A stretch of DNA of 64,000 nucleotides from Romanomermis culicivorax (lineage: Eukaryota > Nematoda > Enoplea > Mermithida > Mermithidae), in contig CAWUHX010000013.1 in NCBI GenBank assembly GCA_963922205.1, forward strand, positions 930,001 to 994,000. The letters are read 5' to 3'. The position numbers and the translations under genes are program-made. Below the pieces are notes generated by a model. The model had not been told where the DNA came from, made no database searches, and saw only the letters and a list, made by a program, of their open reading frames with translations. Below are positions 22,601-64,000 of the stretch, piece after piece. Numbering within the stretch: the stretch's first letter is position 1; every line of letters begins with the position of its first letter.

Positions 22601-25600
22601 ATGGGGAATTTTATCCGACGAGAGGAGCAAAGGGATCGAATCGATCCCAAGAATTTACGAATTAACGTGCTGGAGAAGAAAGTCGAATTATTGATCAAAG
22701 TTATCGAAAGCGCGCAAGTTAAAGAAAAGGAAACAGAGGAAGATCAACGGAAGAAGATAGGTGAGTCTTCTTACATTGAGAGTAGATTAGAAAGAGTAAG
22801 TGAACCTAAGAGAGAGGTTCATTCAGAGGTTTATGTAAGGTCTCAAGAAGATAGAGACAAATATTCGAGTAGATATAGAGGTTGGACTGAGGAACCGCAG
22901 GGTTCGAGGAATGCTGAACAAGCACAATCGAATGCCTACGGTTACTCAGAGAGTAGGAGGTCTAGGGAAAGGAAGGTGACTATCTGCGATGAATCATCCC
23001 AGGGAGAGGACAGATTTTCTCGTCCCACTCCTCGGAGAGATACCACAAATAGAGCTGACCTTAGTCCTGAGAGGAGGAAAAAGAGGAGGTCGAAGAGTAG
23101 AAAGAGATCTCACAGATCTAGAACTAGGAGTAGACATTACTCAGATAGTGATAATAGCAGTTCATCTACGTCGAACTCTAGCTCAAGTGTAGAAGTTGAT
23201 GTGAGAGATGTGGTAAAGGTTTTGAAACATAGACCTCTGGAAAGTGAGTTTCTGGAGAATACTGCGGATAAGGTAAAGAAAGAGTGTTTGAGAAGGTTGT
23301 CTCAGAACACGGCTAGGAGGATAGCAAGAACATCCTCAAGTTATACAGAAGCGCGGAGAAATGTTTTAAAGTATCTCGCGCCGACTTATGATTTGACGAT
23401 GCTCAAAAGAGAGTTGTTTAATATGAAACAGGAAGAAGACGAGTCAGCCTTAGAGTTTTTAAAGAGGTTGAGTAATCCCGTGGATCTGGTCTATGCAGAT
23501 CAGACTGATCAACTAAGGCAAGAGAATATTATTAATGCCTTCATTTATAAAAGTAGTCCGTTATATCAGACGGAGTTGCAGGATGTATTGCCATCGATGA
23601 AAACTTGGCAAGACCTTGCATACGCCGTAACTCAGATTGATAAGAAATATAAAAATGTGTTTACTACTTTTGGAGCCAAGGATAAACCAATTAAGGTGAA
23701 TCAAGTTGTAGCTACGGAGGAGAAGTGCCCGGAAATTGCTTTTGTAGGGAATGCTCCGTATGGAAGTACTAAAAAGTATAACCAGACGAAGTCAAGACGA
23801 CAAAATCAGTTGCAAAAGGCAGTAGAAGAGGAGAGAAGTGAGGAGAATGCTGAAGAGATGCAACCTGGCCCATCGCCTCGTGATGTCAAAAAGTCTAACG
23901 AGGAGCAGGCCAAGGAGTCTTTTTATAGCTATTCTCTCAAAGGAATGGCTACAATTGGTTCAAAAGGTGGATAAATTACAGGTTACTCAGAATGAAGCTT
24001 TAAAGGAGTTGACTACTGTAAAGACTGTGTCTGCTGAAAAGCAGAAGCAGTTGAAGCAGCAGAGACCCTACTGCATATGTCATAAGAATAATACTCATGC
24101 TACGGAGGAATGTAAAACATTAGCATACCGGCGTCAGCAACAGCAACGTGGTGGATTTAACCATGGCATGTCTAATCTGTATTATGGTGGTGATAGGAAT
24201 GCTTCATTTAGAGGAAGTTTTAGAGGTAGAGGTGGACTTCAGTTTGGATTTAGAGGAAGAGGAAGAGGTGCCTATTATGTAGGATTCCCCGAAGAAGATC
24301 AAATGTACGGGTATGACCCAGAATTCGAGAGATACAGGGAATTCTGCAGACTTAGAGAACAAGGCATCCAGTTGCAGAGGCAGCCTCAGTTGATGCTGCC
24401 TGCATCAACTAGTCAACCGGCTATTCAGGCTAGTACCGTCCAGGATAAATCTGGATCATTTGTTTCGAACCAGTCGCAACCTAGTTCGCATAACATAATG
24501 GTGACAAGCCGTACGGATGTGGATGATGAAAGCGAGCAGAGTAGAAACAAATCATCAAGTTTGGTTCTCAAAAGTATTATTCACCTGGATAAGGTGACAC
24601 CTCTAGAAAAGGTAAAGGAAAAAGATTTGGCTCATGTGAAGTATGGAAGAAAAGTAATGGACATAGAGAAAAGGTTGTTGGAGAATTATCCGAAAACGGT
24701 TCCATTTTACATAGATGTAGTTATTAAAGAAACAGCTACCAGAGCTTTAATCGATACAGGAGCTCAGTGTACGGTCATGTCTTCTAAGCTCCTGAAAAGG
24801 GCATTAGACATTGATTATACAGTGTACCCTCGTATTCTTAAAGTGACTGTAGCTGATGGAAAAATTGTGCATGCCTATGGGTATGTACCAGTTTGTATGA
24901 AGACTGAATTTGGAAATTTTCCAGTCAATGCTATAGTGTTGCCAGATGCAGGTGAGGACCTAATCTTGGGCACAGATTTTTTAGCACACCCAGACTTAGG
25001 TGTGGTGATTGATTTTAAAAGGAATGCCATGACGATACAAGGCATTGAGAAGAAGATTGATGTAGTTCAAGTTCCTTCTGTAATTACTGTGCAAACGGTA
25101 ATAGAAGAAGTGACTAAAGTCAGTGTGGCGTCGACTGATTGCATAAATCAAATTGTTTATCCAAAAGTTTGTCTACTAAAGACAACTGTTGCAATTGTTG
25201 CATGTGTGAAAACCTACATTCCATATGGAACAGATGTTTTGATGAAGGAAAAACTTTGGGATCAACATGGAGATGCCACCTTGAACGGAATTATTGTCGA
25301 ATCTAAAGATTCTGAAAGGAAGTTCAGAATGGAGAAAGCGGTTGTAGATGGATCACAAGAGGAGTTTGTACTACTAATCTCCAACACCACGGGTTCTGGT
25401 TGTCGGTTTGAGAGAGATCAAATCATTGGCTATACAGAATCTATGTTAATTGAAGATGATGATACTTATAAAAAGGTGAAGGAAATGAAAAAGATAAAGG
25501 AGGAAAAGGAATATCAGACTTGTATGGTAAAGGAAGGAATGCCTGCATTATCAAAAGCTGATTCTGTAGAGTTCTATACTTCACTATGCAGGATGATATC

Positions 25601-28600
25601 AAAGGCAAAAATTTCGGAAGAGCAGAAAACGGAAGCTATAGAGTCTTTGTTGAAATACAGAGATGTCTTTAGCTTGCCTGGTGATCCGGCTACTAGAACC
25701 CCAGCTCTGACGTGTAAGATAGATACAGGGGATGCGAGACCTGTAGCAAAAAGATATTACAGAGCTTCTATCAATAGTCGGCCAGGAGTAAGGCAACATA
25801 TAAAGGAGATGTTGGATCAAGGAGTGATCGAGCCCTCTAAGTCACCGTGGGCTGCACCCTTGTTTCTAGTTGGAAAGAAAGATGGAACTACGAGACCAGT
25901 AGTTGATTTTAGAAGTATAAACGAAGTGACCAAGGATGATAAATATCCCATCACGAGAATGGATGACTATTTAGATTGCCTTGGAAGAGCTAAGTTTTAT
26001 ACGACTCTAGATTTGAAGTCGGGATATTGGCAGGTCCCAATGGAGGAGGAGAGCAAGGAGAAAACGGCTTTTATATGCCAGGAAGGCTTGTTTCAGTTTA
26101 AAGTGATGCCGTTTGGATTGAAGAATGCACAGGCTGAATTCCAAAGGATGATAGAGAGAATCCTTGGGGATTTGGTATGGAAAATTTGCCTAGTGTACAT
26201 AGATGATATTATCATCTTCTCGAATATGTTCAAGGAACACTTAGAGAATTTGAAATTGGTGCTAGAAGCATTGAGGAAGGCGAAGTTGACTCTTAAGCCA
26301 GAGAAATGTGAATTTCTTCCCGAGAACGTGCACTTTTTAGGGCACATCTTGGATGTGAACGGAATTTCTCCGGATCCTAAGAAGGTCAAGGCGATAATGG
26401 AATTTCCATTCCCGGATTCTGTTAAGAAGATGCAGAGATTCCTAGGTATGCTACAATGGTGTAAGAAATTTATACCGGACCTAGCAGCACTAGCTGAACC
26501 TTTGTTCAAATTAACAGGCAAGAAGGGAACATGGAATGTGACAGAGTTGCATTACACAACTTTTGAGAAGCTCAAAGTAGCATTGACCTCAGTACCTTTC
26601 TTAAGACATCCAATTTTAGATGGATCTGCGCGATTCATTCTTCAAACGGATGCCAGTGGAATTGCATTGGGAGCAGTGTTATGTCAAGAGACTGACTCGG
26701 AATGTTGGGTGATAGCCTACAATAGTCGGATATTGCGGGCAGAAGAAAGGAAATGGTGCGCCACCGAAAGGGAATGCTTAGCTGTGGTATACGGCCTAAA
26801 AATTTATAAACATTATCTTTTGGGTCAAAAGGTCACGATTCGAACGGACCACAAACCATTATTATCAATGAGGGTCAACACACAGACTAATGACAAACTC
26901 AAGAGGTGGTATGCATTCATTTGCCAATTCAATCACAAGTTGGAGTACGTGCCTGGCAGACAAAATGCCATGGCTGATTTTCTCTCCAGGAAGGAGGAAC
27001 TGGATGAACAGAAAGAGAAGTTGCCACCAAAATGGGAGCTTATCTTTCAGAAAGGAGATGTGAAATCTCTTGCTGAAGACGAAGTCATTAACCAAAACCA
27101 CAAAGTTTTAGTGAATCAACTTCGGAAACTCAGAGGAGATGAAGTGGATGAGGCTGTAGGAGTCTTCACTTCGGTGAAGATGGCCACAGCTTCAGTGGCT
27201 CCAAGATATCATGTTAGTGATGAAACTCGACTTAATATTTCTCCAGAATTTGATAATTATCGAACGCCTGGGAAATATGAAATCGAGGCGGTAGTCACTA
27301 GACAAATGGCAGAAAACTTGCAGCAGGAGGAAAAAGGACATCCTCCTGGGCAAGCTAAACCTAAAGAGGAAGTGAAGAGAATTTTTGAACCGAAGGAGAA
27401 GGAGTTTGAAGAAGCCCCTCAGATTGAAGATGGTAGACCGAAAGGGCTTATCTCAAAGGCCTTGATGTCACAGTTACAAGGAAAGGATAAAGATTTAAAA
27501 GTGATCTTCGAGAAACTAGGTGCTAATAGTAGCACTAAGTCTCAAAGTAACTTTTATATTGATCAAGGGATACTATATAGAGAGACTTTTGGCGAGGCGC
27601 ATCAAGGGTTTAAGAGAACCTTTTGGTGCATCAAGGGTTTAAGAGAACCCTTGCATTATTAAAAAGCGGTTCTGGTGGCCGAGCATCAAAAAGGATGTTG
27701 GGAGCTGGATCAGCTTTTGTCCGATATGTCAAATTGCGACTCTAGGAAAGGCTACAATACCGCCATTAAATCCTATAATTCCTAGAGGACCGTTTGACAT
27801 AGTCTCTGTTGAAATTGTGGGAATTTCTCCCATGAGTGAGAAAAGACCGTATGTAATAGTATTCCAAGATTACTTTACAAAATGGGTGGAAGCAGAAATG
27901 ATCCCGGATCAATCTGCTGTAACGATTGTGGACAGTTTTCTTCGAAATATTGTGTTCAGGCATGGAACCCCGGTGAAATTGTTGAGTGATAATGGTTCAT
28001 GCTTTACAGCTTATCTGATGATGTCAGTGTGTAAATTATTAGAGTGTCAGAAGATTTTCACAACTGCCTACCATCCACAAGGAAATGGAATGGTTGAAAG
28101 GTTTAACCAAACCTTGATCAAGCAGTTGCGAAAGGTTGCTATAGAGGATTCAGACAAGTGGGACAGATATTTGCAATCTGTCGTTTTTGCTTACAATGCC
28201 ACACCTCATACCTCAACGAGATGTTCTCCATTTGCCTTATTGAGAGGTCATGAGGCTAATTTTGGCATAAGTATTGGTGTTGCAAGAAATATAGTTCTGC
28301 CAATGAACTATGAGGCTTATAAGCATATACTAACCGAAAGTTTAGTAGAAACTTATGAAGTCATTTCAGAAAATATCAAGAAAGCTGCGGAGATCAGTAA
28401 AAAGTTTTTTGACCATAAAGCAAAGGCTCATGATTATTCCGTCAATGATTGGGTTTTGCTGAAAGTCGATAAACAGAAAAAACTGGGTCTGCCATGGCAA
28501 GGACCGTATGTTGTTACTGATAATAGTAGATTATCAGAGAACGTGCTTGAAATCGCGCACTGGAGAGAGCCCCTGAAAAAGCAGGTGGTATCCGTGAGCA

Positions 28601-31600
28601 GGTTAAAGCATTTTCGCTACGAGACCCGCAGATGGCTGCAGTCTAACGACGTGTCATCTAAAGATGCATAGTTTACTGTAGATTCGAAAATCAGTAATTA
28701 TAAACTGCCGTAGCGTGTAGCGCTGTTTTTCGCGTGTGTGTGTGCGTGTGATTACCCCCCCCCCCATATTTTTTCATCCCGAATTTTGTAATTAGGTACA
28801 AATTGTAATTAATTGTATTTATTTATGAATTTATCGTGTATTTATTGCGTATTTTTAAATTTTCATCGCGTAAATCTTAAAATTTTCAAAAATTCTTGAT
28901 AAAAAACCACTCTTCGCAAAAAACCCAAATTCTTAAAATTTTTTCGCGGCCCAAAATTTTAAATTCCCCCGAGTCCGATTAATTTTTTCGGAGGTTGTAG
29001 AGTGAAAATAGACAAAAAGTAGCGAAAGTGGAAAATTTGTCGATTTTTCAGCTCTTATCAAAAATTATAGAAATTTTTCGAAAATTGATAACGCCGAATT
29101 GAAAGAATTCGAAAAAGAAGCGGAAGGAATGTCCAGACCCCCCAATGGACGCCGGACAAAGCAGTATTTGGTCACGGACCCCCACGTGACCTATGGTCAG
29201 CCGCAGGTGCAGCAAAATAATCGGTATTTTTTAGTCGATGTTAAGCGACCTAAGTTTTTAAACTTAGTTAATCTAAAAATTATTTGGGCAAAGCAGGATG
29301 TTATAGCCCACGGGTGTCTAGACGAAGGCCTAGACAATTTTCTCAATTTAGTGGGAACATATTTGTTCTGTCAAACTTGAAAAAGTGTGGCAAAGCTGCC
29401 CGTAGCGCGAAATTTGGACTTTTTGCGAAACTACATCTTTCCTCTACACACATAGCAAGTTGAAAAAATTCGTCTATGTGATGGGGAAGAAGTGGAGTGT
29501 AGCAACTAGTCGACTAGGGGTAGATAATTTCAAATTTATTTAAATTTCTAAATTCCATCTTAATCTAATTTTCTACGAATTTCCACATTTTGGGTAAAAT
29601 AGTAAATATATTTTTAAATTTCTTCTTGGAAATTCTTAATTTATTAGTTGGATAGGCCGTTTTGGGCATTGGATTGAGACAGCTAGCAGTCGAATGATGG
29701 AAGACGCAGGTGGTCTGTGCGTATACTCCCATATAAGGTAGAAGTCGAGGCCGCACTTGTGTTTAACTATCTGCCAACACTAACCCAATATATGTTTGGT
29801 ACCTTATTGTCCCCTGCTTGTAATTTTTTCTTTTTTCCTATTTGTGCTTACTATCTGTGGTGAAGGTAGAATTTAACCGATGTTTGTCCGCTTAGAAAAG
29901 TTCTCATAGAAAAGTTGTAAACATTTCGCCTGAATTTTTTAGACTACAATGTTAAACGCATTGTCAGAGTCAGCGAATTGGAACGATGGTTTGCCACGAC
30001 TTTCGGGAGATTTCCATTGGAATTGACGGAACCGAAAATGGTCGAAATAGGTAAGGTGGCTGAGATGATCGAAACCTTAAAGGTGAGTAGGTTTGGAGGA
30101 CAGCCAATTATGGGTTTTGATAGCGAGAAGGTTACTCAAGAGTATGTGAGTAAGGTTTTCGCGACTTCTGGGGTTGATAACCCAAAAGGGAAGGAGTTCG
30201 CGGGAGTCATTAGCTTCTCGATGGTGACTGGAGACACCTTTGTTGTAGATACTATGACAATCATGCCGAAGGAATGGACGCTCATTCATGAGCTCTTAGA
30301 TTCGGACATACTTCTCATTGGATACAACTTGGTTACAGATCTGGTTGCCGTCTGGAATGTTAATGGCGCAGGCAGAAATCACCAAGATGTTGATCTGACA
30401 GCAGAGATCAAGTATAAAATTGCGTCTTCATATGGCCGTTATTATAACGTAGCCAAGGTAGGAGACCAGTTGAACGGGAGATTTTTGGCAATGTGCAGGA
30501 AGTTGGGACTTTGCCCAGAGACCTTTAAGCTGAAGGGGTTGTTCACGGAGCTGTATCTGGTGGATATTGGTTATTATCAAATCGATTTCTGTCAGAGAGC
30601 GCAATGTGAACGATTCTGTAGGCACACATTAACGCAGTTTGAAATTAGGTATTCAGCACTGGACGCCTACTACTCATTGTTGGTTTTCCTAGCGTTTTTC
30701 CACTATGAGTTAGCTACGGAAGTCGAGGTCGGATTCCAGTATTTTCGGCATGATCTGATGAAAGCGGATCAAATTCAGATAATGGCTTATAGGCTGTACA
30801 GGTTTTTTAATATGGTTCATGGTGAAAATTTTCCACAGACCTTTTGTGGAAGTCCAGAAGTAGAAGAGATGCAGTCAGCATCTATTTATCACGTAATGAG
30901 ACAAGAAGCGTATGCCCGTATAGCTGCCTAATTGGACACCTCATTTGGAGGCAATACGGAGTACAGCTTCCCTCATTACGAGGCAAATCCGAAGAGAGGG
31001 AGAGAAGTAAGTATCCCTAAAGGTATTCATCCCGATTATACCATCAAGGAAAAAAGTAAGAATGTGGACGGTAACGATATGGTAAGTGAGGATGAAGAGT
31101 TTGAAGAAGCTTTGTCCGAAAAGCAGATTAGAACTCGAATTACGAAGAAGGTGATAGATATGGTTAATCGAGGGAAGAGTTTCAGTAGACTTGATGAACC
31201 AGTATCTATGGTTTTGTACGAGAATTTCCTAAGGTATAGGAAAGAAACTAAACAGTTGTTGGAGATAACATCTCTGGAAGTTGATTACCATGAGTATGAA
31301 CCAGTCAGAGTGTCGAATGGTAAAGACTCGTACGTAAGACAACACTGGAGTATGGATATCGCTCCTTATTCTGAAATATTGATTGAGGACAATTTTAAGA
31401 ATTTGGAGTCAGTGTGTAACAAAGTTCGGCTTACGTTTCACTTGTTTTGGCCAGCTTGTAGAGAGGAAGCGGAGGAGTACCTTACCTCTCTCCTTGACCA
31501 CAACTATTTGAGATCCTTTAGCCCTGAGGGAAAAGAACAACTCTTGAAGATGTTGTGGAGGGGAGATAGGTACGGTCAGTATTTATCATTTTTGAATAGT

Positions 31601-34600
31601 CTTCCAGTGACAGAGGTGCATACGCCAACCAAGGGCGATGGGATTACATGTTGGGGAAATCGTTTCGGATTTTTGCTGATCCGATTTTGGCCCAAGACAA
31701 AATCATGGGAGCAAAGACCGGAAGACAAGAGGAAACATTTGGCGGAATGTCCGCAGTACAAAGACAACCCGTACTGCTACCAAAGGTTTTACTTCCATCA
31801 AATAGCTGTCGGGGTGCCAGGTTTGCGATACCCGATAGATATGGGGGAGGACGCTACAAAGGAGAATCAGAAAAAGAGCGTGTTAGGGTATAGCCGGAAT
31901 ACGTTCCAGGTTACAAACCGCCATTTTTTGAGCCGATATTGCCGTCCAATGCTCCAGGTTTTACAATTACGCATATTGGCGATAAGGTTGTGGTGACGCC
32001 GATAGGTAAGCAGCCAACAGTGCCAGTTACAGGCACTGAGGTAAGCACAAGGGTGAGTCAGCAATCTGGAGTTGATATGAGTAGTATGGATCAGGTGCAG
32101 GGGATGCAGGCTGAGCCTGTTGCGGCGAAAGCACAGCAACAAGTGATACCTGCAGACCTCACACCCCCATAGACTTGAATCAGGAAGGAAATGATTTAGA
32201 AGTGGACAAGGAGGTCACGGTCAATCATTGATACAACCTGATCAAGAAGCACAGGTAGCCTCTTTGGTAGATCAGACAGAAAGTTTACTTTCTGAAATGG
32301 ATGTTAGGGCAGAGCAAATGTTGGATGAAAGCAATCTGATAACGATTGCTGCAAGTCCAACAATAGAGGAAATTGAAGCAAGGCTCAGGGAGCAAGCTGA
32401 AAAGGAAATCGAAAGACAGAAAGAGATTTTTGCTAAACAGCTTGCGGAGCAGAAAGCGAGATTAGATCAGCAGCAGAAGCAGCTGGAGCAGGTATTGGCT
32501 GGTTTTACGGCGCAGTCGACGCCTCTGGCAGCGCCTACAGTCGTGCAAGCTCCGGCCAAGCCGCCTACTGCTTATCATATCCCGAAATTGCCGGCGCAGC
32601 CTGCTAGTACGCAGGCCATCCAACCTGTGGTCAGCAAGGTTACGCCGACAGTTCAAATAGCGCCCAGAGATCCAGGAATAGATGGTGGTATACCAGGTAC
32701 ATATACCGACGAAGAGGTTAGGAAATTTAGAGCAGAAGGTCGTACGGACGACCAGATTAAAAGATTAGGAAGGAGGAAGTTAGCCCGAAAGGCCAATAGG
32801 GCTAAAAGGAGAGACGAGGAAAATGTTATTGAAATTAGTGATGGTGAAGGAGAACAGACAGGGAGTTCTATGTCTGTGGACTTGAAGTTTGCTGGATCTA
32901 CTACTTTATGTACGGATTCAACCAAGTCAAAGACTGGAACTACGCCAATGAGCCTGACGCCTGGAACCACAAGTTCTATGAGTCAAGTGCAGTCGACGGT
33001 TGCTTCGGCTAAAGTACCTAGTAAATCGGCTGCATCTCAGGTAAGTGCAACGACGAAAAGTACTTTGGCTAAGCCCGTGTCTAAAGTGGATAAGACTTCT
33101 CAGCAGAACCAGAGCAGTTCCTCAGGGAAGAAAGTTGTTTCTAAACCCTCTACGTCGGAACCGACTAAATCGGTCAAGAGAAGTAGAGATAAGGAAGTAA
33201 CTTTGGAGTACCTGAGTTCTGTTTTGAGAGACTACTGGGATGTCTATAAGAAGTTTCCAATGGTGAAAGGAAGGATAGATTTTTCGACACCAGAGGTGAT
33301 CGAATTTTTTGCTCAGGATATGCCAGATGATAATAGGAATCAAATCATCTGGGCATTGGTGAATAATGGAGTAGAGGAGCTTTATGAGAACTATGGGGAT
33401 CACTTTGATGTTCAAGGTGGTTTCCTGTATGATCACATAAACGTTCCTGAGCCCATTTGGGAGTATATTTGGCTCAAGTTCATGCCAAATTGGTTTCATC
33501 ATTTTGATGCGGAAATAGCAATGGCAGCCGTGAGATACTTATGTACCATGGTGTTGCTAAAGTTAGAACAGCAGCAGTTGGGCCCCAGACATATTGGTGC
33601 AGTTGATGCACGGGCCAAGTCATTTGTCACGGAGAGGTATTATTCTATCTACCTGCGGGGAGAAGGTAGTACTGCATTCAGGGAAGCGTATGCCAACCAA
33701 ATGCAGGAACACCAACAAACTGCAGTGGATATGGCAGCAAAAAGAAGGTTGTCTGATATGCTTCAGAAATTTTCTGGTAAGTTCCAGAAAGCCGAGGATG
33801 AGGAGGGGCAACCCTTCAAGATTCCCATTTTAACAGAAAGGCAACCTAGAGATACATCCAGGACTAGGAGCCAGCACTCGCGACAATGGTCTCACTCGCA
33901 AGGTCGGCACCAGCCTGGAGTATTCAAATTACCATGCGCAAATCAACAGAGTCAAGGAAGGTCCAGTACCTCAGCTTCTGGAGTATCTTCCATAAGTTCC
34001 ACTCAGGGCTCATACCAGAGGGGAACTGGAGGGGGATATGGCCGAGGCTGGGGTCAGGGGCAGGGTCAAGGAAGACCCTTCAAAATGGTTAATCCGCAAC
34101 CGTATAGAGGTCAGGCGATGGGTGGACCCCCTCGTGCGGCCCAACCTGGAGGAGTTTTTGGGGGATTCCTCAGGGGTCGTGGAGCTCGGGGTAGTCCCTA
34201 CCCTCGCCGTGGTAGCTTCCAATAGGGCGGTTATGGTGGCGGCGGGCAACAATAATTTTATATAGCTGCTCAATTTTTGGACCAAAATTTATTATTTCGT
34301 ACAAATTTTATTTCAAAAACACAAAAATACAAAAACACAAATAAAATAAAAAATACAAAAAAATATATATATTATCTCATTTTATTGTTGCTTTAAAATT
34401 TTAAAATTTTTTCTCGGTTCCGGTGCTCAAAAATTGCCCGGCGAAATTCGTCTTTCCGTCCATCTTATTTTGGGCGTGTATATAGCCCTCGTATTTTTCT
34501 CCTTTACTTTCAGGGCCTGAAAAAGATGAAGATGTGAAAATTTTAATTGCATTTATAAAATTATTTCGTAATTAGATAATTGAAATATTTTATAGAAAAT

Positions 34601-37600
34601 ATCTTTTACTGAGTAGATTTGTATTGGACGGAGCGACGTGGCGAGCGGCCGACCATAGAGGAAGCGCACCTGGGGTACCTCATCACCGAAGTTGTAAAAA
34701 CCAGTACACGGGAGAAGAGGAACGGCGATGCCCCGGATCTAGGCACAGATCAACGTCAAAGTCCAGGCTGAACTATGTTCGTGATCATTTCCGGTAGCCT
34801 GAAAAAGAGTGCCCTGCCGAATGGATTGGTCAAGGTCCCCGTCACCTGAAGGACCTGGTAGGGGCTGGATCACATTTTGGAGGGGGTAGCCCCAAAAATT
34901 TGTTTTCCGAGGGGAAAACTGTTATGCAGTCGGGGCCTCAGTATGAGACTCAGGCTGCAGAAAGGTTTTCACCTCCCGTGGGTCGGTTTTGAGGGCTGAG
35001 GGATGTTGGGGTGGCTCCAGGTGCACGTGTTCAGCTTCCAGCGTCGGTGCGCAGGCGGTTGGACATGGCGAAAAGTGGCAAAGAGAAAAATATAATTTGC
35101 ATAGATTTATGCTGCCACTGTTTCGCGATTTTTGTGTCTTTTTATCAGTGTTAAAAAGATTAGTTTTATGGAGCGACGCCGCCATCGCCTTTTTATAGTA
35201 ATTTTGTTTATTATTATTTGTTTGGTGTCGCCAGTTGTCACCCAATACAAGTTGGGCCTGTAAGTTGTTTTGTTTTGTGAGCGCAGGGGAGGCTCTTATA
35301 AGATTAGGAGTGGAGACTTGGGTAGGATCTCCTGAGGTACGTGCCAAGGTGTTCTGCCTGAGGTTTGGTGAAAGTTCTGGCGAGTATCTGGTGAAACGTC
35401 TGGGAGAGTTTTGTGTTTATTGTTGTTGTTAGCCTGTGGTCAGAACTGTTGCATCATTTTGGCCCCACAGCAGCCTAACATACGTATTATCTAGCTCAGG
35501 CTCGGCTTTTAGCATGTCTACCTCCATTTATCACTTAATCCATGATAGTTTTCATCATCTTAAACGTATTATCTCATGTTTTACTTGGTAAATCTTCAAT
35601 ATTTTATCATGATATTTTATGAAGATTCGCATTTTTTCGTTTTGAGAAAGATCAATACCTCAAGTCTCTAAGCTTTTTGATGTAATTATTTCTTTTCTAA
35701 CGTAAAATCAATTCAAAAGCTTCATGGAAATATCTTTCGGAAATTTATACTCTTCTTACTCATATATTTTCGACCAAGTTCATGAGAGTTTACAAATAAA
35801 TTACTGGTTTTAAAACTTTTCAAGTAAAATTCTAGAAATTACGACTTTTGAACACGAAATTCGAATCTAATTCTTGAAATTGATTTTCCAGCGTCGCAGA
35901 ATGTCAATAGTCGAAAAAAATTTTCCAGCGCTTCGCGCTGGTAACATTAACGTCTCTCTTGGGCTCTCACTTGTCATCATAGAGGACCTAACTATCGATT
36001 TCTCATGTAATTCAAACTCATTATGCTCTTGGATAGTTTGCTGGAAAATTTGTTCCACTCCACAATGCAAAAATTTCAACATTTTCTTCAATTTTAATAC
36101 ATTAACGGCTCTAAAAAACAAGAAGGCTTGAAAAAGCTCGAAAAGCTTAAATAAAGCGTCTGTGGCCATTTTTAAGCGAAAAACGACTTGGGAAAAAATT
36201 TCTCTTACAAGTCGTCGAGCCATAGTGCTTAAATTCAGCAAATATTCGATTTTCAGTCTTCTGATAATCCACATTTTAAATAATATAGTCAGAATTTTCA
36301 TCAAAGAAATTTTTTTCCGAAAGATTTTGTGCTAAATCGATATATGATTCCTTAGTTTGCATTTGATCACTGATAACTTCCAAAACTTCAAAAAATCGAA
36401 AAATCGGCGAAATTTGTGGTCTAAAAGTCTTATCGCACACCTATATAATCCTATAAAAAGCTAATTTTGAGTGTAAAAATTAGTTTCCAATAAAAGAAGA
36501 ACTAAAACTTTGCAAGTTCTTTGCAGAAAAATTTCGTGAGTGGCCGTCAGAGGGACCTCCCCTCTCCCTCTGAAATTTCACTCATCCCTTCTCTTCACTG
36601 AGGGACTTTTGTGAGGAGAGTTCGATTGTGGAACTCAAATCACAAAAAATCCCTCACGCTGAGGGCCCTCACAAAAAAATTGAGGGCCCTCACAAACGTT
36701 TAAAATGTATCCCTATAAGCGCCGAGAAAATTGACGTTTTTGACCATTTTTTGTTCAAAAATTGACATTTTTCATCATAAAATGGACATTTTTCAGTATT
36801 TTTCCGGCCAAAAGTATGGTCGGAATGACTACCATATGGCTAGTCATAGGATTAGAAAATCCTGGGAGGGTCGCCCAATGGCTGATGATATGGCCGACGA
36901 TTTCTAGGGGGGTTCCTGTAGCACTTATCCCGCAATTACATGTATGTTTAAATTTACATGTGCACTCCACCTTCCGTGATTCGGCCCTTAGTTTCTATCA
37001 TATTTACAAATTCTCTCATCTAATTTTCAAAGTGTAAAAACTTTTTCCTAGCGTTCATTCTCATGGAATAAGATTTTGTTAATGTTTGACTGATTTTGTC
37101 ATTCACGTTTATTTCCGCTCGATTTTTCCCTGTTTTAGTTTCTGTTTAATCTTATTTGAGTCATTTTAGCCTCGTGTTAGACTTTTGTGCTTACTTCGGT
37201 TCTCCTTTTGTATTTCTTATTGTGTGCATTCCTTGTTTCCGCGCTACGCTTTTTCCCACCAAAATAACTTTTTTCTAATGTCGAATTTCTCATCTCATTA
37301 AATTTATACAGTATTTTATATCATTTTTAAGTACAGTGGCCAGTTGCAATATCGCAACAAGTAAAACAAACCCGAGCTCGAGCTAAACCCCGGCTCGTCA
37401 TTTTCAGTAATGGTCGAGCACGCAATGGAAAAGTTGAACATGGGGGCTAGTAGGTTTAAGTCATACCTCCTGTATGCTTTCTACACATGTCCACAACTCT
37501 TCATTATTTCTCCATAAAAAAAGTTGGCTACTGCTACAGTAGGACTTATACGTGTTTTTGTATAACTTTATGTATGAAAAAGATGTTCCTGCAAATAATA

Positions 37601-54093: not shown

Positions 54094-55082
54094 GCTAAAA
54101 TTACGCTTAGAACATAGGCACGAAACTGCTGCTGGTGCTGAACGCTTGAGAGACTAAAGCTGCAGCTGAGATGCAATATAAGTTGCGGCTAAACACCACT
54201 TTCGTTAGGATGCAGCTTAGGGTGCAACTTAACCTTCTCAATATGCTTTAAATAGGAATTATGTCGCACCTTAAGCTGCAGCCTGCAGCTTGATGAAAAT
54301 GGTATGGCATATAGACCTGAGTTGTAAGCTATTGTACAACCATTCATGGTAGGGCCTGAATCGGATCTGGAATTTGCGTCCCGGCCCAGCCCAAAAATTT
54401 TTTTTAGTATCCCGAACCCGGCTCGGTCCGAAATCGGGCTTTAACCTTGAGGCTCGACCTGAACCGATTAAAAACAACAAGCCCCAAAGCCCGACCCGAA
54501 AGTCCGATCTTAAAATTTTGTGTAAATGCAATTTCATTTGATATTTTACTATTGCTCAACATAGCACTTTTTTCGTCGTCGAGTTCATGCATTGAAATTT
54601 TTGGATTAAATAGTAATTTATTAAAAGCGAAATTGAAAAGTACGATGTCGCCTGAACTGATTATAAATAAAAATTGACTAATAAATAAGTTGGTGAACCG
54701 TTCAGTAATACAAACATTGAAGAAATTTGCTCAAAGTCCACGAAAGGGGACAAAGAGCAAAAAACGGAAGCAGAGAAAAAAGGGTGTGAGTAAAGAGCAT
54801 AGTTAGTCGGGCCGAGCTGTGGCTACTTTGTCCATGGTTTTTTGTTCTAAAAATTGAAAAATCGAAAATTTCTTGGTTTTCTTCAGGAACACTGAAAAAT
54901 AAGGTGTCACTAACAACATGTATTTGATTCAGAAATCACAACGAAGATAATCAAAAACTATACCTTGCACATCAAAATCTTACGGGCTTTTTCGGGTTTT
55001 TGAAAAATAAGTCTGCCCGGCCCGACCTGTTGTGCAGGTCTTTCCTTAAGAGGCGTAAGAAAAGATTGGGTCTGAACTGACC
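54094..55082. other. 3' flank of the coiled-coil gene
   Basis: This must include the 3' UTR; AATAAA-like words occur near 54664. Between 54110 and 54300 gcagctta/taagctgcag words are repeated in both orientations. From 54345 to about 55050 there is a repeat with cggcccagccc, ccgaacccggctcgg and gcccggcccgacc, probably a decayed hAT-type MITE. The minus-strand LTR element is inserted at its right border. Confidence 0.4.
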
Positions 55083-55641
55083 TGTTAGAACTGATCCCTT
55101 GGCTAAGCCTCGGTGATAGTGCAACAGTCCGGTTATCCCCAGACCTACAACAACAAAGATAAACTTAACTCTAAAGAGCGGGGCCTTACCAAGGACCTCC
55201 GCAGTCTCCTAGATGAGACAAGGAATCCCCTCAGGGATAAACTTACTTGGGTATAACCCGTAAGGGGTTTCCCAAAGCTTACCTGATGTAAGCCGGCGCC
55301 TGGGCCTCTGGCCCTCCGCCTTCGTCGATGCGAATAATCTAAATAAATAAACGAATATATTAAGCAATATGTCCGACGAAATATGTAAAAAGAATGTGGG
55401 TATACCACAGTGAATAACTCATAAACAAAACAAGTTGCTGGGAAAATTGTATTTGGGGACGCCAGCAATAATAGTCAAAATATAATAAAAAACGAGATAA
55501 AGTGAAGAATGATTTTCACTATCTTTTTCGGTCTTTCTGTGGCGCTCCATTCTATGCAAATGTCTGCGCCGCTGGTCGTCCCTTTCGTCGATTTGCATGT
55601 CGATTTCCCCACACGAATTGGCATCAACAGGGTGCCCAACA
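55083..55641 (-). repeat. 3' LTR of the minus-strand element, about 559 bp
   Basis: On the minus strand it begins TGTTGGGCACCCTG and ends CTAACA, the same termini as the 474-477 bp LTRs of the other element. Shared words near its end are ttgttgttgta and actgttgca. The start is fixed by the adjoining purine tract, which aligns with 34991-35003. Confidence 0.8.
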
Positions 55642-56386: not shown

Positions 56387-59300
56387 TTACTGCTGCTGCC
56401 CGCCGCCTCGGTAGCCTCCTCGAGGTCTACCTTGATAGTACCCCCTCTGACCTGGTTGGCCTCGGGTATGACCTCCATCTTGGCCTCGATTTTGGCCTTG
56501 TTGGCTCCCGCCGCGTCTACCTAGCGGCATAAAATTCGGATTATGGAATTGAGCATCCGGGTCTTGACCTTGGTGTTGCCAGGTTCCTCGGCCTCTGTAG
56601 GGTCGCTGAGGGCGCCCTCTGAAGCCTCCTCTGGGTTGACCTTGGTCATACCCCGGTCTAGCCCTATACGGGGCCGGGTTTGAGAACATATCGTCTCTCC
56701 CCTGCTGCCTTTGACCACTGCTAGTGGAGCTGCTGCGTTGTGGTTTTTGTGTCCGGTAAGTTGAATTAAGAGATTTTGATGATATTGATTTTGATCGAGA
56801 GAGCGGACTTTTATAAGAAGTGCTAGCAGCTTCACTATATGACCTCTGGCTGGTCGTAGCCGATGATTGTTGTATCATCGGCGGTTGTTTCTTAGCCGGA
56901 GGGAGTCTAGGCACTTTAAACTTACTCGGGCTCTTGGCAGCCGTTCGCTGATATTTATCAGCTTGCGACCTGTCATCGCCTGGTGCCTTCCTCTTAACAC
57001 CCATCTGGTTTAACCTTTGCGAGCCCATAAAAATATATTGATTAAAGGCTGCAATGTAGACATCGTCTACGCGGTTTCCCTGGGCCTCAACGACTAGTTG
57101 TCTGTTCGCAAACGAACACGCCTGGGCATACCACCTACCAATTGCCGTTGGCGTGATCGGAGCGAAGTCCAACTGTAGAAAAATCATTAGGGTCACATAC
57201 CTAATGGCCGTAAAAACGTCTGAGGCATCGTAGTCCTGAAGCCATCTGGGAATAAGAATTAAGATGATCCATTCCCAGATTTCCTCAGGGATGCGCTCTC
57301 CGTCAAACATAAATCCGCCCTGCATTTCAAATTGCTGGCGGTAATTTTCGTGAATTTCGGCCATAGCGTCATTGACCATTCTGTAAATGATCGGCCGTTC
57401 TTGGCGATCAAAGGCGAAATAATTGGCGACCTCTGGATTTTCGAATGAGATCGGCCCAATTAAGCGCCTTTGTTCCCGTTGCCACTCCCAATAGTCAATC
57501 AGAGTTTCGGCTAATTGACCAGGAGTGACAAACTGCTGTGGTTCCCTTTCGGGTCTACTAGCTACCACATTCAGTTTGACCTTCTTGATCAATTTTTCCT
57601 CCGATTCAAGATCGGGCTTCACCAATACGCTTCCCGCAGGTTTGCTACTTCTTGCGGTATAGCTGGAGGGCACGGATTTGCTTTTGCCAGATGAAGTACT
57701 AACCTCTCCGCCGGTTTTCGATACCGTTCGCGTCTGAGTGTACGAAATTGTTGCAGTGGACCCTGTTGTCCTATCCGATTTTGTCTGGCCTTTGGAGGTC
57801 TCCGTTCGCGTTTGACTTTTTGAAGTCTCCGTCCTCGTCTGACTTTTCGAAGTCTCCGTTCTCGACTTTTGACTCGTCGAGTATTCTGGGGTCGTTGTTT
57901 CTTCGGCCGTATCGTAGGCGTCGTTTTCAGATCCGGTGGCGGCCGCTCCTTGTTGCTGCTGACCTTGAGCTGCAAGTCTGCGTCGTTTGGCCTTACCTAT
58001 CCTCTTTCTGCGCCTTACCTTTTCCTTGGCCAAGTGTCGGATAAATTTTTCCGACATACCTTCAGCTAACATCTGCTGAACTTTGTCTGGGGAATAAATT
58101 CCAGGAATACCTTCCTCGGCAATTCTTCCCCTCCTCATCAGCTCTGTCGCTGCAATGGCTGAATCTGAGCTATCATCGGCTAGTGCCTGCTCCTTCAGCT
58201 TCCTTTGGATTGCCCTCTGACGCAGGAATTCCTGCTGCGTCAGCCTTCTCTGTTCTTGAATTTTGGCCTGTAGGGCCTCTTGCTTCGCTTGTCGGTCGTG
58301 ATCCTTAGGATCTTTGGCCTTCACAGGTATCTCCTGGGATGCTTCCTGCATCTTCTCCAGTCTGACATCGATCCCTGACATTTTAGTGACTGCTTCGTCA
58401 ATTTGAGTCTGGATTTTTTCCTCCTCAATAGCCTGTTTCTGAGTCTTGGCCTCCATCGCATCCTTATTTTCTGATGTCTGGCCCTCAGATTCCAGAATTT
58501 CACCCTCTTCTTCTTCTTCAACATCCTCCTCTGAACTGGACTCAGAGTCTGAATTTCGTATCTTCGGCAAGAGCTGTTTTACTTTAGCTGGTAACACAGC
58601 TGGTGCCGGAGGTACAGACTGCATAATGGTGACAACCTCTGGCTCAGGCTCGGCCGGTTGCTGTATTTGAGGTACTTGAGTCGGCTGTGCCACCGCTGGT
58701 TGCATTGGCGGCGGCACCACGACTATTACTGCAGCTGCCTGCGTAGCAGCAGTGTCCAAAGCTGGTGTAGCTTTGACCACTGGCGCTGGCGCCTGCGGCT
58801 GCGTTTTAACCTGTCCCGTCCCTCCGGCTTGCGCCGTTTGGGAAGTAGAGGGACGATTTACCGGTACCTTAGATATTAACTCACCGGCTGGGGTATATGT
58901 TAGTGTATACCCGGGCATCTCCGAAGCAATTGTTCTCTCCCGGAAGCTTTTGCTAACAAACTCCGGTCTGAGCTCGAGCGGATTTCTCGGTGCGTACGTA
59001 ATTGGGTAATCGGTCGGCGATGCGTCTTCCGTCATCGGATACCGCAGTCCCGGCGTCAAAGTCTCGAAGCCTACGTAGTAAAAAGTTACATAAAAATAAG
59101 GATTTACCTTGTAGGCTCCGTCCTTCAATAACGATTTGTCGTCGCCGATTTGCAAAATTTCCTCGGCTTCTCGAAATCGTAAGGGGACAAATCCGAACCG
59201 ATTCTGCCACGCGTATACCCCTTTTTTAGATGGAAAGCGGGGTTCCGACGGCGGTAGCGTTGCTGCTAACTCTAAATAATAAGCCAGGCGGTCGCCTGAC

Positions 59301-60915
59301 TTCCAGGACATGCGTTTTATCATTTCCTGGCCTTCCCTAGTATAACTATTTAAGAAGTTATAGTTCAGCAAAGCGCTAGTTTCGTAGTCGCACTCCGCTC
59401 TCGAGTGCGGCCATGCCAAATGATAAGCCAATGGCATAAATTTGCAGATGACCTCTAACTCCGCAAAGTTTCGCTCATCTAGCATACCTGAAATTTTTGC
59501 CAAGTTTGGCGTATAAAAATTGGTCTTGTAGGCCTGTCTATGACCTTCGATACCCACTGGGTAGTGGTTGTTTGCTGAAAACACCTCTTCAGGTATTTGA
59601 TCGGGCTTCCCGGCCTGTTGCCAGTATAGCTTGGCGTTTTCGTATAAAGTCAAAGAAATTTTCCCGTCTAAATCCCAATAGGTTCCACCTGACTTGAGAT
59701 TTTCCAGGATATCTTTTGAAATATTAACCCAGTCTGGTATCTGGACGTCCTGGATTTCGTCGGGATCACTATCTGTAGTGTATCCATCGTCCTTCATCGG
59801 TTTGTTATCTCTTGGGAGCAGTGGATAGAAGCCACTTGGCAGTTGAACTCCCTGAGGACGAACTGGATTACACTCCGTGGGCGCGGTATAATAACCTGTG
59901 TTATTTCCCTGCATCTGTACAGCCCAACGGTTATACATTTCACACTTCATCATGTGATAGACCATATTCGGCTGTACCTGATCGGTTTCCATGACTGGGG
60001 TACCTAGCCCCATTTCTCTATTCACGTTGCCCGGGATCATTAGATATTGTTGATAAAAATGTAGGGCAACGGTGTTGATCTGTTTGGGATCCACCTTGTC
60101 ATGGTCGAAAATCTGCATTTGCATAAGCAGTTGATCGGCCATGCCATAGTGAATGGCGGCAAACATGACCAATAAGGAGTAGTATGCGTCTAGAGCGGCG
60201 TATCTAAGCTCTTCCGGCAATATACCCCTTTTGGCAAACCGATCACGGTTCGCCTTTAATGAAAAGTCATACTGGTAGGGGCCCACGTCTATCAGGTAGA
60301 ATTCCGTGAATAGTCCCTTTAACCGAAAGGTTTCGGGACAGATACCTGTCTGAAAGCATTTTTTCTCCAGGTTTACTCCTACCATGGTTAGAGCGAAACG
60401 GTCTAAATCAAAGTATCGACCCTTGGTCTTTCTAAGAAATTCCCGTAAGGGGACAGTTTTGTCCCTGTCCTTATTGTCTCGCCCTGCACCACATACGTTA
60501 TAGATACTTACCAGGTCCTCCAATACGGAATATCCGGCGAAGAGCATGTCGGAGTTCAAGAAGTCGTGGAGGCTGGTCCACTCTTTGAGCATCATCGACG
60601 TCGTATCAATAACGTAGGTTTGACCATTCGTTAGCGCGAAGCTGACATATCGGGCAAACTGCTTTCCCATTGGATTGTCGACCTCTCTTGTTTTAAACAA
60701 GGCGGCGACCTTATCCTGGTTGACTTTTTCAACATCGAAGCCACAAACTGGTTGTCCTCTGAAGATTGATACTTCTCGGATAAAATGGAGTGTCTGGCTG
60801 ACTTTCCCGATGTCTACCAATTTTGGTTCCTTGGGATTAGCCGGCCAGTACCCAAATGTGGCTTTAAACCACTGATCCAGTTCATGGATTCGTACGGCCC
60901 GTTTGACGTTATAAT
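56387..60915 (-). CDS. ORF3: DEDDy 3'-5' exonuclease-like domain plus long accessory protein (intact copy)
   Basis: This frame of about 1509 codons starts directly at a splice-acceptor-like AG (exon from 60915) without a nearby ATG. Counting from codon 60820 as residue 1, exonuclease motifs are D29/E31 (GFDVEKV), D102 (GYSVLEDLV) and Y207/D211 ([17 protein letters not shown]), the complete DEDDy set of RNase D, WRN, EXD1 and MUT-7. The segment before motif III ([16 protein letters not shown]) has the LKxLxxE character of the family. After about residue 300 come a conserved middle region, Pro/Gln/Ala-rich and acidic stretches, a Glu/Gln coiled coil, a GIPGIY...KRRR basic motif (possible nuclear signal), about four TETSKSQTR repeats, a conserved domain (about 1093-1236, with [13 protein letters not shown] and IPEEIWEWI) and an RGG tail (about 1380-1473). 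The position matches env, but there is no signal peptide or membrane helix. Role unknown; nuclease activity is inferred from motifs. Confidence 0.85.
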
Positions 60916-60928
60916 CTAAACATAAGAT
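60916..60928 (-). promoter_or_regulatory. Probable 3' splice acceptor for ORF3 mRNA
   Basis: On the minus strand cttatgtttag is followed at once by the conserved ORF3 coding sequence (DYNVKR...). The codon phase at the AG is the same as in the plus-strand element (AG at 29941-29942). The pyrimidine tract is weak here, so the conserved position and phase are the main support. Confidence 0.55.
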
Positions 60929-62137
60929 ACTATTAATTTTAGTGTTTATTCCCCTTTTTTCAGCGCATTTTCGGGTCTATACTACACCAGCACCACAACA
61001 CCAAGCGGGTTAAGTTTCGCAGAAATTAAATTTAGTGCAGGTTGTTAGGTGAGCCACTGATATACAAACATTGAGCTGGTAGGCAACTAACACCTTACCA
61101 AATCTTACCCTTGCTACCTCTATATGTTGGGGAGGGTAGACCTGATCCGATTGTCCACCACTTGATCGGACACCAATCTCTGACCAGCTGCTTGAGCGAC
61201 CAACTACGCTCCATTTATGGCGCTGTATTTACAATTTTTATAGCGCTCGAGATTGATAATTTTTAATGAATTTGATATCGAAAAAGTGATATGATTTGAT
61301 TTGATTTGAAAATAAATAATTTTTGATAAATTTTTGATGATAAAACTTTAAAACGGGCTGAACCCAAGGTTCTAGGTTTCCCTTGAATCGTATAGCTCTC
61401 GGTGGTATCAGGTATATTTCCAAATTGGAAATTCCCTGCTTGGCTTCGAGCTTCCGCTTCTCAGTACTCCCATTTTTCGTTCCCTCTAAGTTCTAACCTC
61501 GTCTGCCCTTTGGGGCGCCGAGCTGGTCTTCCAGTGACTTCTGGGCATTACCTGCGGTTTCCAAGAATATTTGATAAAAATAAGTTCGAAACTTACCGTC
61601 GATGAAGAAAAAACGATTATCTTGGCGGTGCTGGGCCCTGCCATATTCGACGTGGCGCTCTGTGTGCGACCACTCGCGCGTCGGAGCTTGTTGGCGGTTC
61701 CGCGCGCCTTTTCCCATTTCTTTTCGCTTCGAAATGTTTTTCTTTTTCGAATAAATTTATAAATTTTAAAAATTTTGAACGCTGAAAAAGTTTAATCTAG
61801 CAATTTTGCTAATTTCCTTTTTATCGCGATTCGGGGAATATTTTACTTCTTCCTTCCGATGGAAGTTTAGAATTCAGATAAGCCGGGGCAGCTATAGTTT
61901 GATTTTAGAAAAAATGAAAAATTTGAAAATTAATTTTTTGGAAAAAATGTCGGAAATATTTTGGGTTGTCACTTTGGTCTAAAATTCCGAAGAATTTTTC
62001 CCAAAGTCTGAAATAAATATGAAAAATTTACAAAATTAATACGAATAATACATAAACGCGATAAATATTACAAATTAATACATTTTTAATTAAAATTAGT
62101 ACCTACACGCGCGAGATATGTACATAATAAAAAAAAA
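60929..62137 (-). other. Non-coding gap between integrase and ORF3
   Basis: This is the counterpart of 28672-29929. It is AT-rich with no credible ORF. Any donor-site or intron function is unproven. Confidence 0.5.
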
Positions 62138-64000
62138 TCAGCGCGAGATCGCGCATAGATTCGCCTTGAGCGAATTTCCAAATGATTTCATTTGGTTTGG
62201 CGCTCCAGTCGTAACTGTTTGTGCCATATTGGAAAGTGACGTATTTTCGTCACGTGGCGCGTCCTGATTGGCTCGCGCTATTCGCGGCAAGACCCTAGTG
62301 GTCTCGTAACGAAAATGTTTCAACCTGCTGATTGAAACTGTTTGGCGATTTAGCGGGTTGTCCCAATGTACAATGGTGACAACGTTCTCTGCTTCTCGCG
62401 AAATGTCCGTAACTATGAACGCACCGGACCATGGTAGTCCTAATTTTTTCTGCTTGTCTACTTTGAGCAGAACCCAGTCCTTTTCTTTAAACCCATTTTG
62501 TTTGGACTTTTTATCGAAGTATTTCTTCGATTTTTCGGCAGCACTCTGGATATTTTTAGCAATATCCTCGTAAAGGTTGACTAAATGATTGGTCAACACG
62601 AATTTGTATGCCTCTGCATTGCTGTTCGGCATTACAATATCGTATGCTTTCGATAAGTTTAACCCGAAGGTTGCCTCGTGACCTCTAAGCAATGAAAATG
62701 GGGATTGCCCCGTGGCTGCATGTGGTGTGGCATTATACGCAAACACCACGGCTCTCAAGTATCTTGGCCAGTTATCTTTTTCCTCGATGGCCACCTTTCT
62801 GAGCTGTTTGATGAGTGTCTGGTTGAACCTTTCTACCATACCATTTCCTTGTGGATGGTAGGCTGTTGTAAAAATTTTCTGACACTCTAATAACTTGCAG
62901 ATCTCTTTCATCAGATCTGAGGTAAAACAACCTCCTCTATCGCTGAGTAGTCTCCGTGGAGTCCCGTGCCTAAATACAATAGCTTGTAGAAAAGTATCTA
63001 CAACGGTGCTAGCTGACTGATCCGGGATCAGTTCAGCTTCAACCCACTTTGTAAAATAGTCTTGAAAGACTATGACATACGGTCTCTTCTCACTGAGTGG
63101 AGAAATACCCACGATATCCACTGATACTATGTCAAAAGGACCTTGTGGAATAATTGGTATCAGTGGGGGAATTTCTGTGTTTCCCTGATTAGCCATTTGA
63201 CAAACTGGACAAAACTTGATCCAGTGCCTGACATCCTTTTCAATTCCAGGCCACCAGAACCGTTTTTTAATCATAGCAAGGGTCCTTTTGAACCCCTGAT
63301 GAGTCATCATTACGGCACCGTGGTACTGGTGCAAAGTATTATCCTTAGGGCAGGATGGGACGACTACTTGATCGTCCGACCCCTGTCCGGCTTCCCGGTA
63401 TAACACTTCATTCTGGATATAAAATCCACTATGATACTTGGTTGTCCCATTTGGACCCAATCTATCAAAGTATGGTCGTAGTACCTCATCTTTTCTCTGC
63501 AAGAGGGCCATGAGATCATCTCTAATTAACCCTTTTGGCAATTCATCTTCTTTGGGGTCTGCCAAAGTAAACTCCTGTTCTTTCTCTGGGTATAACCAGG
63601 TTACTCTTTTTTCCTTACCTTTGTCCTGGTTTCCCCTACTTACCTTTTCGTTGACCTGATTGCCATCAGGCTGGATCTGAGCCTGATTACTCTTCTCCGC
63701 TTCTTTCGCCATGCTCCTTGTAGTTACGGCATTTACCAAGTCTGCAGGCGAGTTTGATTCTGGATCACCCTCAGAATCTTCTGGATATATCTGGGTGAAT
63801 CTCGGACTTATTTCAGTCCTCTGATTATTCTTACTTTTTGGCTCCGGATATAACGGAGTACCGTCTTCAGGATTCCGATCTGTCAGAATTCTGAATCTCT
63901 TTACCAAATTGAGATGCTTTTTCTCAATTAGCTGTGCCTCAAGATCTTTCAGATTTTCGGACTCTCGTTTATCCTTTGAGAACATGTGTTCCCATTTTGG
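62138..64000 (-). CDS. pol: Pol C-terminal part: integrase (partial, open at the window edge)
   Basis: The frame is open to the last base of the window. It begins just downstream of where RNase H ends in the other copy (PKWEHMF against PKWELIF). A charged linker is followed by the integrase zinc-binding HHCC region (QYHGAVMMTHQGFKRT ... FCPVCQ). Next comes the catalytic core with the first Asp in VDIVGISPL, the second in LLSDRGGCF and the Glu in [11 protein letters not shown]. The C-terminal DNA-binding part follows, with [15 protein letters not shown] and a GPY-like LPWSGAF. All catalytic residues are present, unlike the plus-strand copy. The protein integrates the element's cDNA into host DNA. 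Confidence 0.95.
   Translation of the reverse strand, partial: PKWEHMFSKDKRESENLKDLEAQLIEKKHLNLVKRFRILTDRNPEDGTPLYPEPKSKNNQRTEISPRFTQIYPEDSEGDPESNSPADLVNAVTTRSMAKEAEKSNQAQIQPDGNQVNEKVSRGNQDKGKEKRVTWLYPEKEQEFTLADPKEDELPKGLIRDDLMALLQRKDEVLRPYFDRLGPNGTTKYHSGFYIQNEVLYREAGQGSDDQVVVPSCPKDNTLHQYHGAVMMTHQGFKRTLAMIKKRFWWPGIEKDVRHWIKFCPVCQMANQGNTEIPPLIPIIPQGPFDIVSVDIVGISPLSEKRPYVIVFQDYFTKWVEAELIPDQSASTVVDTFLQAIVFRHGTPRRLLSDRGGCFTSDLMKEICKLLECQKIFTTAYHPQGNGMVERFNQTLIKQLRKVAIEEKDNWPRYLRAVVFAYNATPHAATGQSPFSLLRGHEATFGLNLSKAYDIVMPNSNAEAYKFVLTNHLVNLYEDIAKNIQSAAEKSKKYFDKKSKQNGFKEKDWVLLKVDKQKKLGLPWSGAFIVTDISREAENVVTIVHWDNPLNRQTVSISRLKHFRYETTRVLPRIARANQDAPRDENTSLSNMAQTVTTGAPNQMKSFGNSLKANLCAISR

Follow-up and report, generated by a model that had tools for sequence, protein, structure and literature searches.

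A DEDDy 3'-5' exonuclease domain predicted in the env position of a long terminal repeat retrotransposon of the nematode Romanomermis culicivorax

What does a retrotransposon keep in the position of an env gene, and what would hold it there? The question is raised by a 64,000-nucleotide stretch of Romanomermis culicivorax DNA (the window; GenBank assembly GCA_963922205.1, contig CAWUHX010000013.1, positions 930,001 to 994,000 of the forward strand), in which a long third open reading frame (ORF3) follows the integrase of an element that we call E1. Our reading, which we consider likely, is that E1 is a recently active Ty3/gypsy-type long terminal repeat (LTR) retrotransposon of this nematode, a mosquito-parasitic mermithid, and that the product of its env-position gene joins a DEDDy 3'-5' exonuclease, its catalytic residues intact, to two orphan regions and an RGG tail. 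Coordinates are those of the window unless a contig or locus is named.

Contig 985025-999676, minus strand: E1 element, 14,652 bp, with an LTR pair and the 4-bp duplication GGTC.
56387..60915, minus strand: ORF3 of E1, ~1509 codons from a splice-acceptor-like site, 1477 from the TTG at 60820 (56387-60820).
60071..60915, minus strand: predicted DEDDy 3'-5' exonuclease domain, residues 1-250 counted from 60820 plus an N-terminal extension.
60188..60736, minus strand: catalytic codons, D29 at 60736-60734, E31 at 60730-60728, D102 at 60517-60515, Y207 at 60202-60200 and D211 at 60190-60188.

The D-x-E, D and Y-x3-D motifs stand in order in E1 ORF3, with D29, E31, D102, Y207 and D211 counted from 60820. 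A preliminary description, made from the letters alone, had placed these residues in the frame after integrase, and we could confirm both their order and the segment [17 protein letters not shown]. All five are kept in 8/8 E1 copies and are invariant in the seven rows of an alignment (A4) of E1, a second element (E2) and five close copies of a third lineage (E3), the other lineages being 43-46% identical to E1. When the A4 (E-type) profile was compared with that of a further family of the same genome (family B, alignment A3), the catalytic columns fell in register (E 7.8e-7, probability 91.7). The score was 55.8; 200 column shuffles reached at most 24.4, a reversed profile 19.6 and five other element proteins 13.9-18.2, so the motif residues go beyond chance. 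Family B in turn matches PF01612 (E-values down to 4.5e-11), and all eight matches of its profile to PDB at E <= 1 were WRN (3), a mut-7 homologue (2), Rrp6 (2) and BAD_0989, which we take to be RNase D-like (best E 1.2e-5). Since these diverged relatives from one genome (E2, E3 and family B) link it to known DEDDy enzymes, the N-terminus of E1 ORF3 is confirmed, at the level of sequence comparison, as a DEDDy (DnaQ-like) 3'-5' exonuclease domain.

Two direct searches weigh against this identification. E1 ORF3 alone has no Pfam match, either whole (E <= 1) or with the exonuclease part (E <= 10), and the whole ORF3 against PDB gave a single match, a chance coiled-coil at E 7.9. Direct searches of NCBIfam and of viral contigs gave nothing useful, and none of 4167 candidates in a protein database matched ORF3 at E <= 0.001. 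Profile searches of proteins returned R. culicivorax entries throughout (15/15 matches with 8000 candidates scored, 23/23 with 3736), in searches that rely on shared five-residue words and that relatives in other organisms could escape. The E2, E3, D-family and L048 proteins reach the Pfam exonuclease family at 0.0012-0.029, all below the cut-off, and the E-type profile finds mut-7 and EXD2 in PDB at ~0.43 each, beside two chance Psb28 entries at 0.4-0.57. Homology of the E1 type to known DEDDy members is thus reached by sequence only through intermediates, from E-type to family B and from there to PF01612 and the PDB enzymes. A profile match to the RNase D/WRN/MUT-7 family accordingly stands by way of family B (WRN, mut-7 and Rrp6) and falls as a direct match. 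The evidence supports the broader proposal of the preliminary description, that an LTR retrotransposon carries a DEDDy exonuclease domain where env would lie.

The element around ORF3 has the structure of an LTR retrotransposon.

55025..55641, minus strand: 3' LTR of E1, 617 bp.
L009:6063-6677, outside the window: 5' LTR of E1, 615 bp.
62138..64000, minus strand: integrase end of E1 pol, running past the window edge; protease, reverse transcriptase (RT) and RNase H lie in L009.

The E1 LTRs are 99.0% identical (four mismatches, two gap positions) and, as in E2, have TG...CA termini and a target-site duplication. A Pfam scan found the order protease-RT-RNase H-integrase in E1 pol: the 1162-aa part in L009 holds protease, RT (4.1e-39), RNase H and the integrase zinc domain, and the integrase core sits in the window ORF, with ORF3 downstream of it. 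By sequence reading, the E1 integrase shows a GAF motif and the E2 integrase a GPY motif. Pfam matches with E <= 1 included no dUTPase in the pol of either E1 or E2. A scan confined to the 655-aa gag frame of E1 found no zinc knuckle at E <= 1, a preceding 242-codon frame lying outside it. E1 gag (L009:3475-5439) has an RG-rich tail where a zinc knuckle is expected, and ORF3 likewise ends in an RG-rich tail.

At least 32 full-length copies of E1 ORF3 are present in the genome at 98-100% identity, 31 of the 32 without an internal stop; these were the candidates scored out of 6553 at first look and all proved full-length, so the true copy number is higher. For the leader adjoining the 5' LTR, 40 of 631 candidates were scored, giving at least 40 matches that are 98-100% identical. 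In two more E1 copies the paired LTRs are 99.2 and 99.5% identical, and eight copies (L001-L008) have eight different 3' flanks. Given these near-identical copies, near-identical LTR pairs and differing flanks, sequence comparison indicates that the E1 family has transposed recently.

E2, which lies in the same window, provides the nearest diverged comparison.

21572..35480, plus strand: E2, with LTRs at 21572-22045 and 35004-35480 (95.8% identical) and the 4-bp duplication TACG.
22124-23974, plus strand: E2 gag-like ORF.
23838-27662, plus strand: E2 protease-RT-RNase H ORF.
27817-28671, plus strand: E2 integrase ORF, 69% identical to E1.
29978..30931, plus strand: E2 exonuclease piece, which ends at an in-frame stop and shares 43% identity with E1 across 300 aa.
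30932..34225 (30932-31996 and 32228-34225), plus strand: rest of E2 ORF3, frame broken; identity is 32% with the middle and 24% with the end of E1 ORF3.

E2 ORF3 is disrupted by one stop and a frame change; its exonuclease piece has all five catalytic residues and matches Pfam DNA_pol_A_exo1 at E 0.0091, below the cut-off. The E3 lineage comprises L040-L047, L049 and L051, of which L040-L047 are 31-40% identical to E1 ORF3 over 584-1499 aa. Across the genome PF01612 gave 119 matches, 95 of them above the cut-off (six of these only with in-frame neighbouring matches), and we examined 57 of the 119 loci (L010-L066). All 57 belong to element-type families. Each of the 46 loci L010-L055 has an ORF with a match (E <= 1e-5) to the exonuclease of L017 or E1. 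The remaining 11 (L056-L066) were considered as host exons and this was ruled out, three being family B and eight family D; no host gene entered the trees. An integrase-like ORF adjoins the exonuclease in 26 of the 30 best loci, the exceptions being L012, L013, L032 and L039.

The lineages are thus E1, E2 and E3; B with the distant L048; and D (L050, L052, L056, L057, L059, L060 and L063-L066), several of whose members carry stops. An exonuclease tree (17 rows) and an integrase tree (11 rows) both split B and L048 from the E and D rows. Both are quick trees with long branches and selected rows, compared with no formal test, and D is represented in the integrase tree by the single partial row L052. 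The concordant split is consistent with one old acquisition. No specific cellular source of the exonuclease, such as the capture from the host proposed in the preliminary description would require, was identified among the profile matches of the E1 type and family B.

Is the exonuclease maintained? From the 28 pairs among the eight E1 copies, dN/dS was 0.047 for the whole of ORF3, 0.036 for residues 1-300, 0.031 for residues 300-640, 0.019 for residues 1095-1275 and 0.07-0.08 elsewhere. These values may overstate the constraint, because the mean ORF3 dS of 0.128 exceeds the divergence of the pol-ORF3 spacer (0.021), the post-ORF3 stretch (0.025) and the LTR (0.054). The ratio of ORF3 dN to the spacer divergence is ~0.28, and to the LTR divergence ~0.11; constraint remains, in less extreme form. 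The high dS possibly reflects recombination between diverged relatives to give mosaic copies. Among the same eight copies, synonymous divergence in ORF3 is higher in the first half.

Family B gives a result that is independent of this dS anomaly. Of 30 B-type loci (L010-L039), the ten whose ORF3 is 608-610 codons long were used. Their pN was 0.0069 in the exonuclease versus 0.074 in the adjoining integrase remnant, and pN/pS was 0.042 and 0.80, respectively; the part of ORF3 outside the exonuclease gave 0.206. For a single pair of copies the overall value was 0.48 in the upstream ORF, and the exonuclease had two nonsynonymous versus 14 synonymous changes. Judged from these substitution patterns, the exonuclease is under strong purifying selection.

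The same family carries the enzyme on elements that have no RT of their own.

C69:273025-280551: L017 element (family B), 7.5 kb, LTRs 99.84% identical.
L067:4626-9001 and L068:1-1952; also L078 and L079: family-B LTR elements without RT, exonuclease constrained.

Upstream of its exonuclease the L017 element has one long ORF with a zinc knuckle, a truncated RNase H, an integrase zinc domain just below the cut-off and an integrase remnant. No RT was found within the element; the nearby RT match is outside the LTR and on the opposite strand. A second copy, L078, resembles it and also lacks RT, and at L038 (L079) there was no RT or RNase H match in 5.1 kb upstream, so that RT is missing in 3/3 family-B elements checked. 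That the exonuclease is kept whilst RT is lost suggests that it benefits its own encoding element, at the RNA or locus level, apart from reverse transcription. Constraint on the B exonuclease while the pol remnants drift would also be expected if these ORFs were an element-derived host gene family, now kept for the host. We hold this to be very unlikely: the bounded B element has its nearly identical LTRs, each of the ten copies is on a contig of its own, all with a common upstream arrangement, as expected of mobile elements, and E1, in contrast, has a full pol.

Beyond the exonuclease, ORF3 has two further conserved regions and a tail.

58901..59908, minus strand: conserved middle region, residues 305-640, 31-32% identity across lineages, dN/dS as above.
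56996..57538, minus strand: conserved C-terminal region, residues 1095-1275, 33-37% identity across lineages, dN/dS as above.
56390..56995, minus strand: low-complexity RG/RGG-rich C-terminal tail, 10 RG and 4 RGG in the last 201 residues.

The middle region has no PDB match and a sole, chance Pfam match (DUF3135, E 0.14, in 1/4 members); the C-terminal region has no PDB match and one chance Pfam match (E 0.025, in 1/5 members). Neither matched the remainder of family-B ORF3. A gag-derived capsid was considered for the C-terminal region and rejected, with a score of 13.7 versus a maximum of 23.1 in 60 shuffles. The composition of the tail points to RNA binding, and on balance we favour the view that the tail would hold the ORF3 protein on RNA, its main target then being the RNA or particle of its own element.

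The size of the orphan regions, and the fact that the C-terminal one has the lowest dN/dS, could instead mean that ORF3 is a structural or env-like protein whose exonuclease domain binds nucleic acid but is catalytically idle, in the manner of EXD1 or Maelstrom; catalytically inactive relatives do exist (PMC5408684). Yet the five catalytic residues are kept in E1, E2 and E3, with matching columns in B, and ORF3 has no transmembrane-like stretch, its highest 19-residue Kyte-Doolittle mean being 1.50. The usual transmembrane threshold on this scale is 1.6. ORF3 does not show the transmembrane or fusion segments that mark an env protein, and we regard an idle module as quite improbable.

How the exonuclease is expressed bears on where its protein begins.

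60916..60924, minus strand: splice-acceptor-like pyrimidine tract plus AG, common to E1, E2 and E3.

The peptide conserved among E1, E2 and E3 starts directly after the pyrimidine-rich TTTAG (acceptor-like site 60916/60915), and upstream of it the three frames share no peptide except the part encoded by the tract. Because the conserved peptide extends back to this site, the ORF3 protein probably starts upstream of the TTG at 60820. None of the eight E1 copies has an in-frame ATG before residue 1, and in six of the eight the first methionine is residue 51, past motif I. E1 has a donor 25 nt into gag whose phase fits the acceptor; it is unchanged in 9/9 leaders read, though leaders barely vary. 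There is thus a good case that ORF3 would be translated, in env-like fashion, from a spliced subgenomic mRNA joining the first gag codons to 60915. Three observations pull the other way: an ATG stands at residue 1 in 2/8 E1 copies, E3 has an ATG shortly past the acceptor-like site, and no matching donor was seen in E2. Because of these, translation of ORF3 without splicing is possible.

What would such a protein do for the element? Tentatively, and somewhat short of calling it probable, we propose that the exonuclease would degrade or trim the RNA 3' ends that feed the host Dicer/RNA-dependent RNA polymerase (RdRP) small interfering RNA (siRNA) pathway, and so blunt the silencing of its element. 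The preliminary description had also thought of small-RNA silencing; a rationale from EXD1 and PIWI-interacting RNAs (piRNAs) fits poorly, as clade I nematodes, R. culicivorax included, are described as having no PRG-1/PIWI and an RRF-3-type RdRP, and no 5'-triphosphate small RNAs were found in R. culicivorax (PMC4323106). Since PRG-1/PIWI is absent from clade I in that account, the target of any counter-silencing would be Dicer/RdRP products rather than piRNAs. For the relative Trichinella, Dicer siRNAs together with DNA methylation have been proposed (PMC4323106).

As the main alternative, the exonuclease may be a replication helper that trims the 3' ends of element RNA or cDNA in the particle, by primer or flap removal, end maturation or proofreading. 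E1 is a large element of 14.65 kb that keeps the enzyme constrained; 3'-end processing is the role suggested by the authors who described the rotifer ORFs discussed below (PMC5408684), and nidoviral ExoN proofreads large RNA genomes (PMC7968707). The enzyme is, however, also kept in RT-less elements of ~7.5 kb, and DEDDy ORFs are also reported from the differently replicating Penelope-like Terminons (PMC6431247). We see a helper role as possible but rather doubtful.

A general form of the silencing proposal would make the DEDDy exonuclease a cis-acting selfish gene in several LTR lineages of a PIWI-less nematode group, one that suppresses Dicer/RdRP silencing of its own RNA and is hence kept by RT-less elements relying on others; taken whole, this is unlikely. 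That the exonuclease outlives RT in elements unable to copy themselves argues for help to the encoding RNA or locus, and makes the function testable. If the enzyme did counter silencing, a retrotransposon would be supplying a suppressor of it in a group of animals that lack piRNAs.

Three further features of the window and its copies are recorded here. Between pol and ORF3 of E1, at ~61020-61220, there are ~200 noncoding bases with zero variable columns in eight copies; the stretch is more conserved than the synonymous sites of ORF3 and is possibly a regulatory or RNA element. At 44414-45123 a 98-base unit forms a tandem array, and copy L003 has, judged by eye, similar sequence in its 3' flank. 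At 1072-1776 (minus strand) there is a piece of another RT (RVT_1, E 2.6e-6, just below the cut-off).

How does E1 compare with known systems? The preliminary description knew of no Ty3/gypsy family with such a domain, which is contradicted by Juno and Vesta, LTR retrotransposons of bdelloid rotifers that carry a DEDDy ORF3, typically expressed from spliced messages (PMC5408684). DnaQ-like exonuclease is also counted among the well-known accessory domains of LTR elements (PMC6338049). For a nematode, no case appeared in the titles and abstract openings of open-licence literature, subscription papers and Repbase lying outside that search. Like Juno and Vesta, E1 has LTRs, a pol with protease-RT-RNase H-integrase and, downstream of it, a DEDDy ORF3. 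As far as the published description goes, it differs from them in its nematode host, in having no dUTPase found in pol (theirs lies between protease and RT), in having no zinc knuckle in the 655-aa gag frame scanned, in keeping DEDD where DEED is reported, and in the length of ORF3 (~1500 aa), its orphan regions and its RGG tail. PMC5408684 favours exchange between retroelements over host capture.

Other mobile elements with DEDDy enzymes are more distant. The Athena Penelope-like elements, or Terminons, of bdelloids are retroelements with DEDDy ORFs like E1, but of another class, up to 40 kb and telomere-associated (PMC6431247). In Dada DNA transposons, described from a fungus and a brown alga, the DEDDy-type exonuclease lies inside the transposase and is proposed to process cleaved 3' ends (PMC3706591). 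Cellular WRN, MUT-7, Rrp6 and EXD2 have the catalytic motifs in common with the E1 type and are the solved-structure matches to the family profiles. A DEDDy ORF3 in LTR retrotransposons was therefore already known from bdelloid rotifers, where its role was unproven and no significant departure from neutrality was found (PMC5408684). R. culicivorax, a nematode, adds a case from another phylum, with the gene spread over several diverged lineages. Also new are the make-up of ORF3, whose ~1500 aa include two conserved orphan regions besides the RGG tail, an acceptor-like site conserved among lineages, and an exonuclease under strong purifying selection that, unlike that of Juno and Vesta as described, is also carried by elements without RT.

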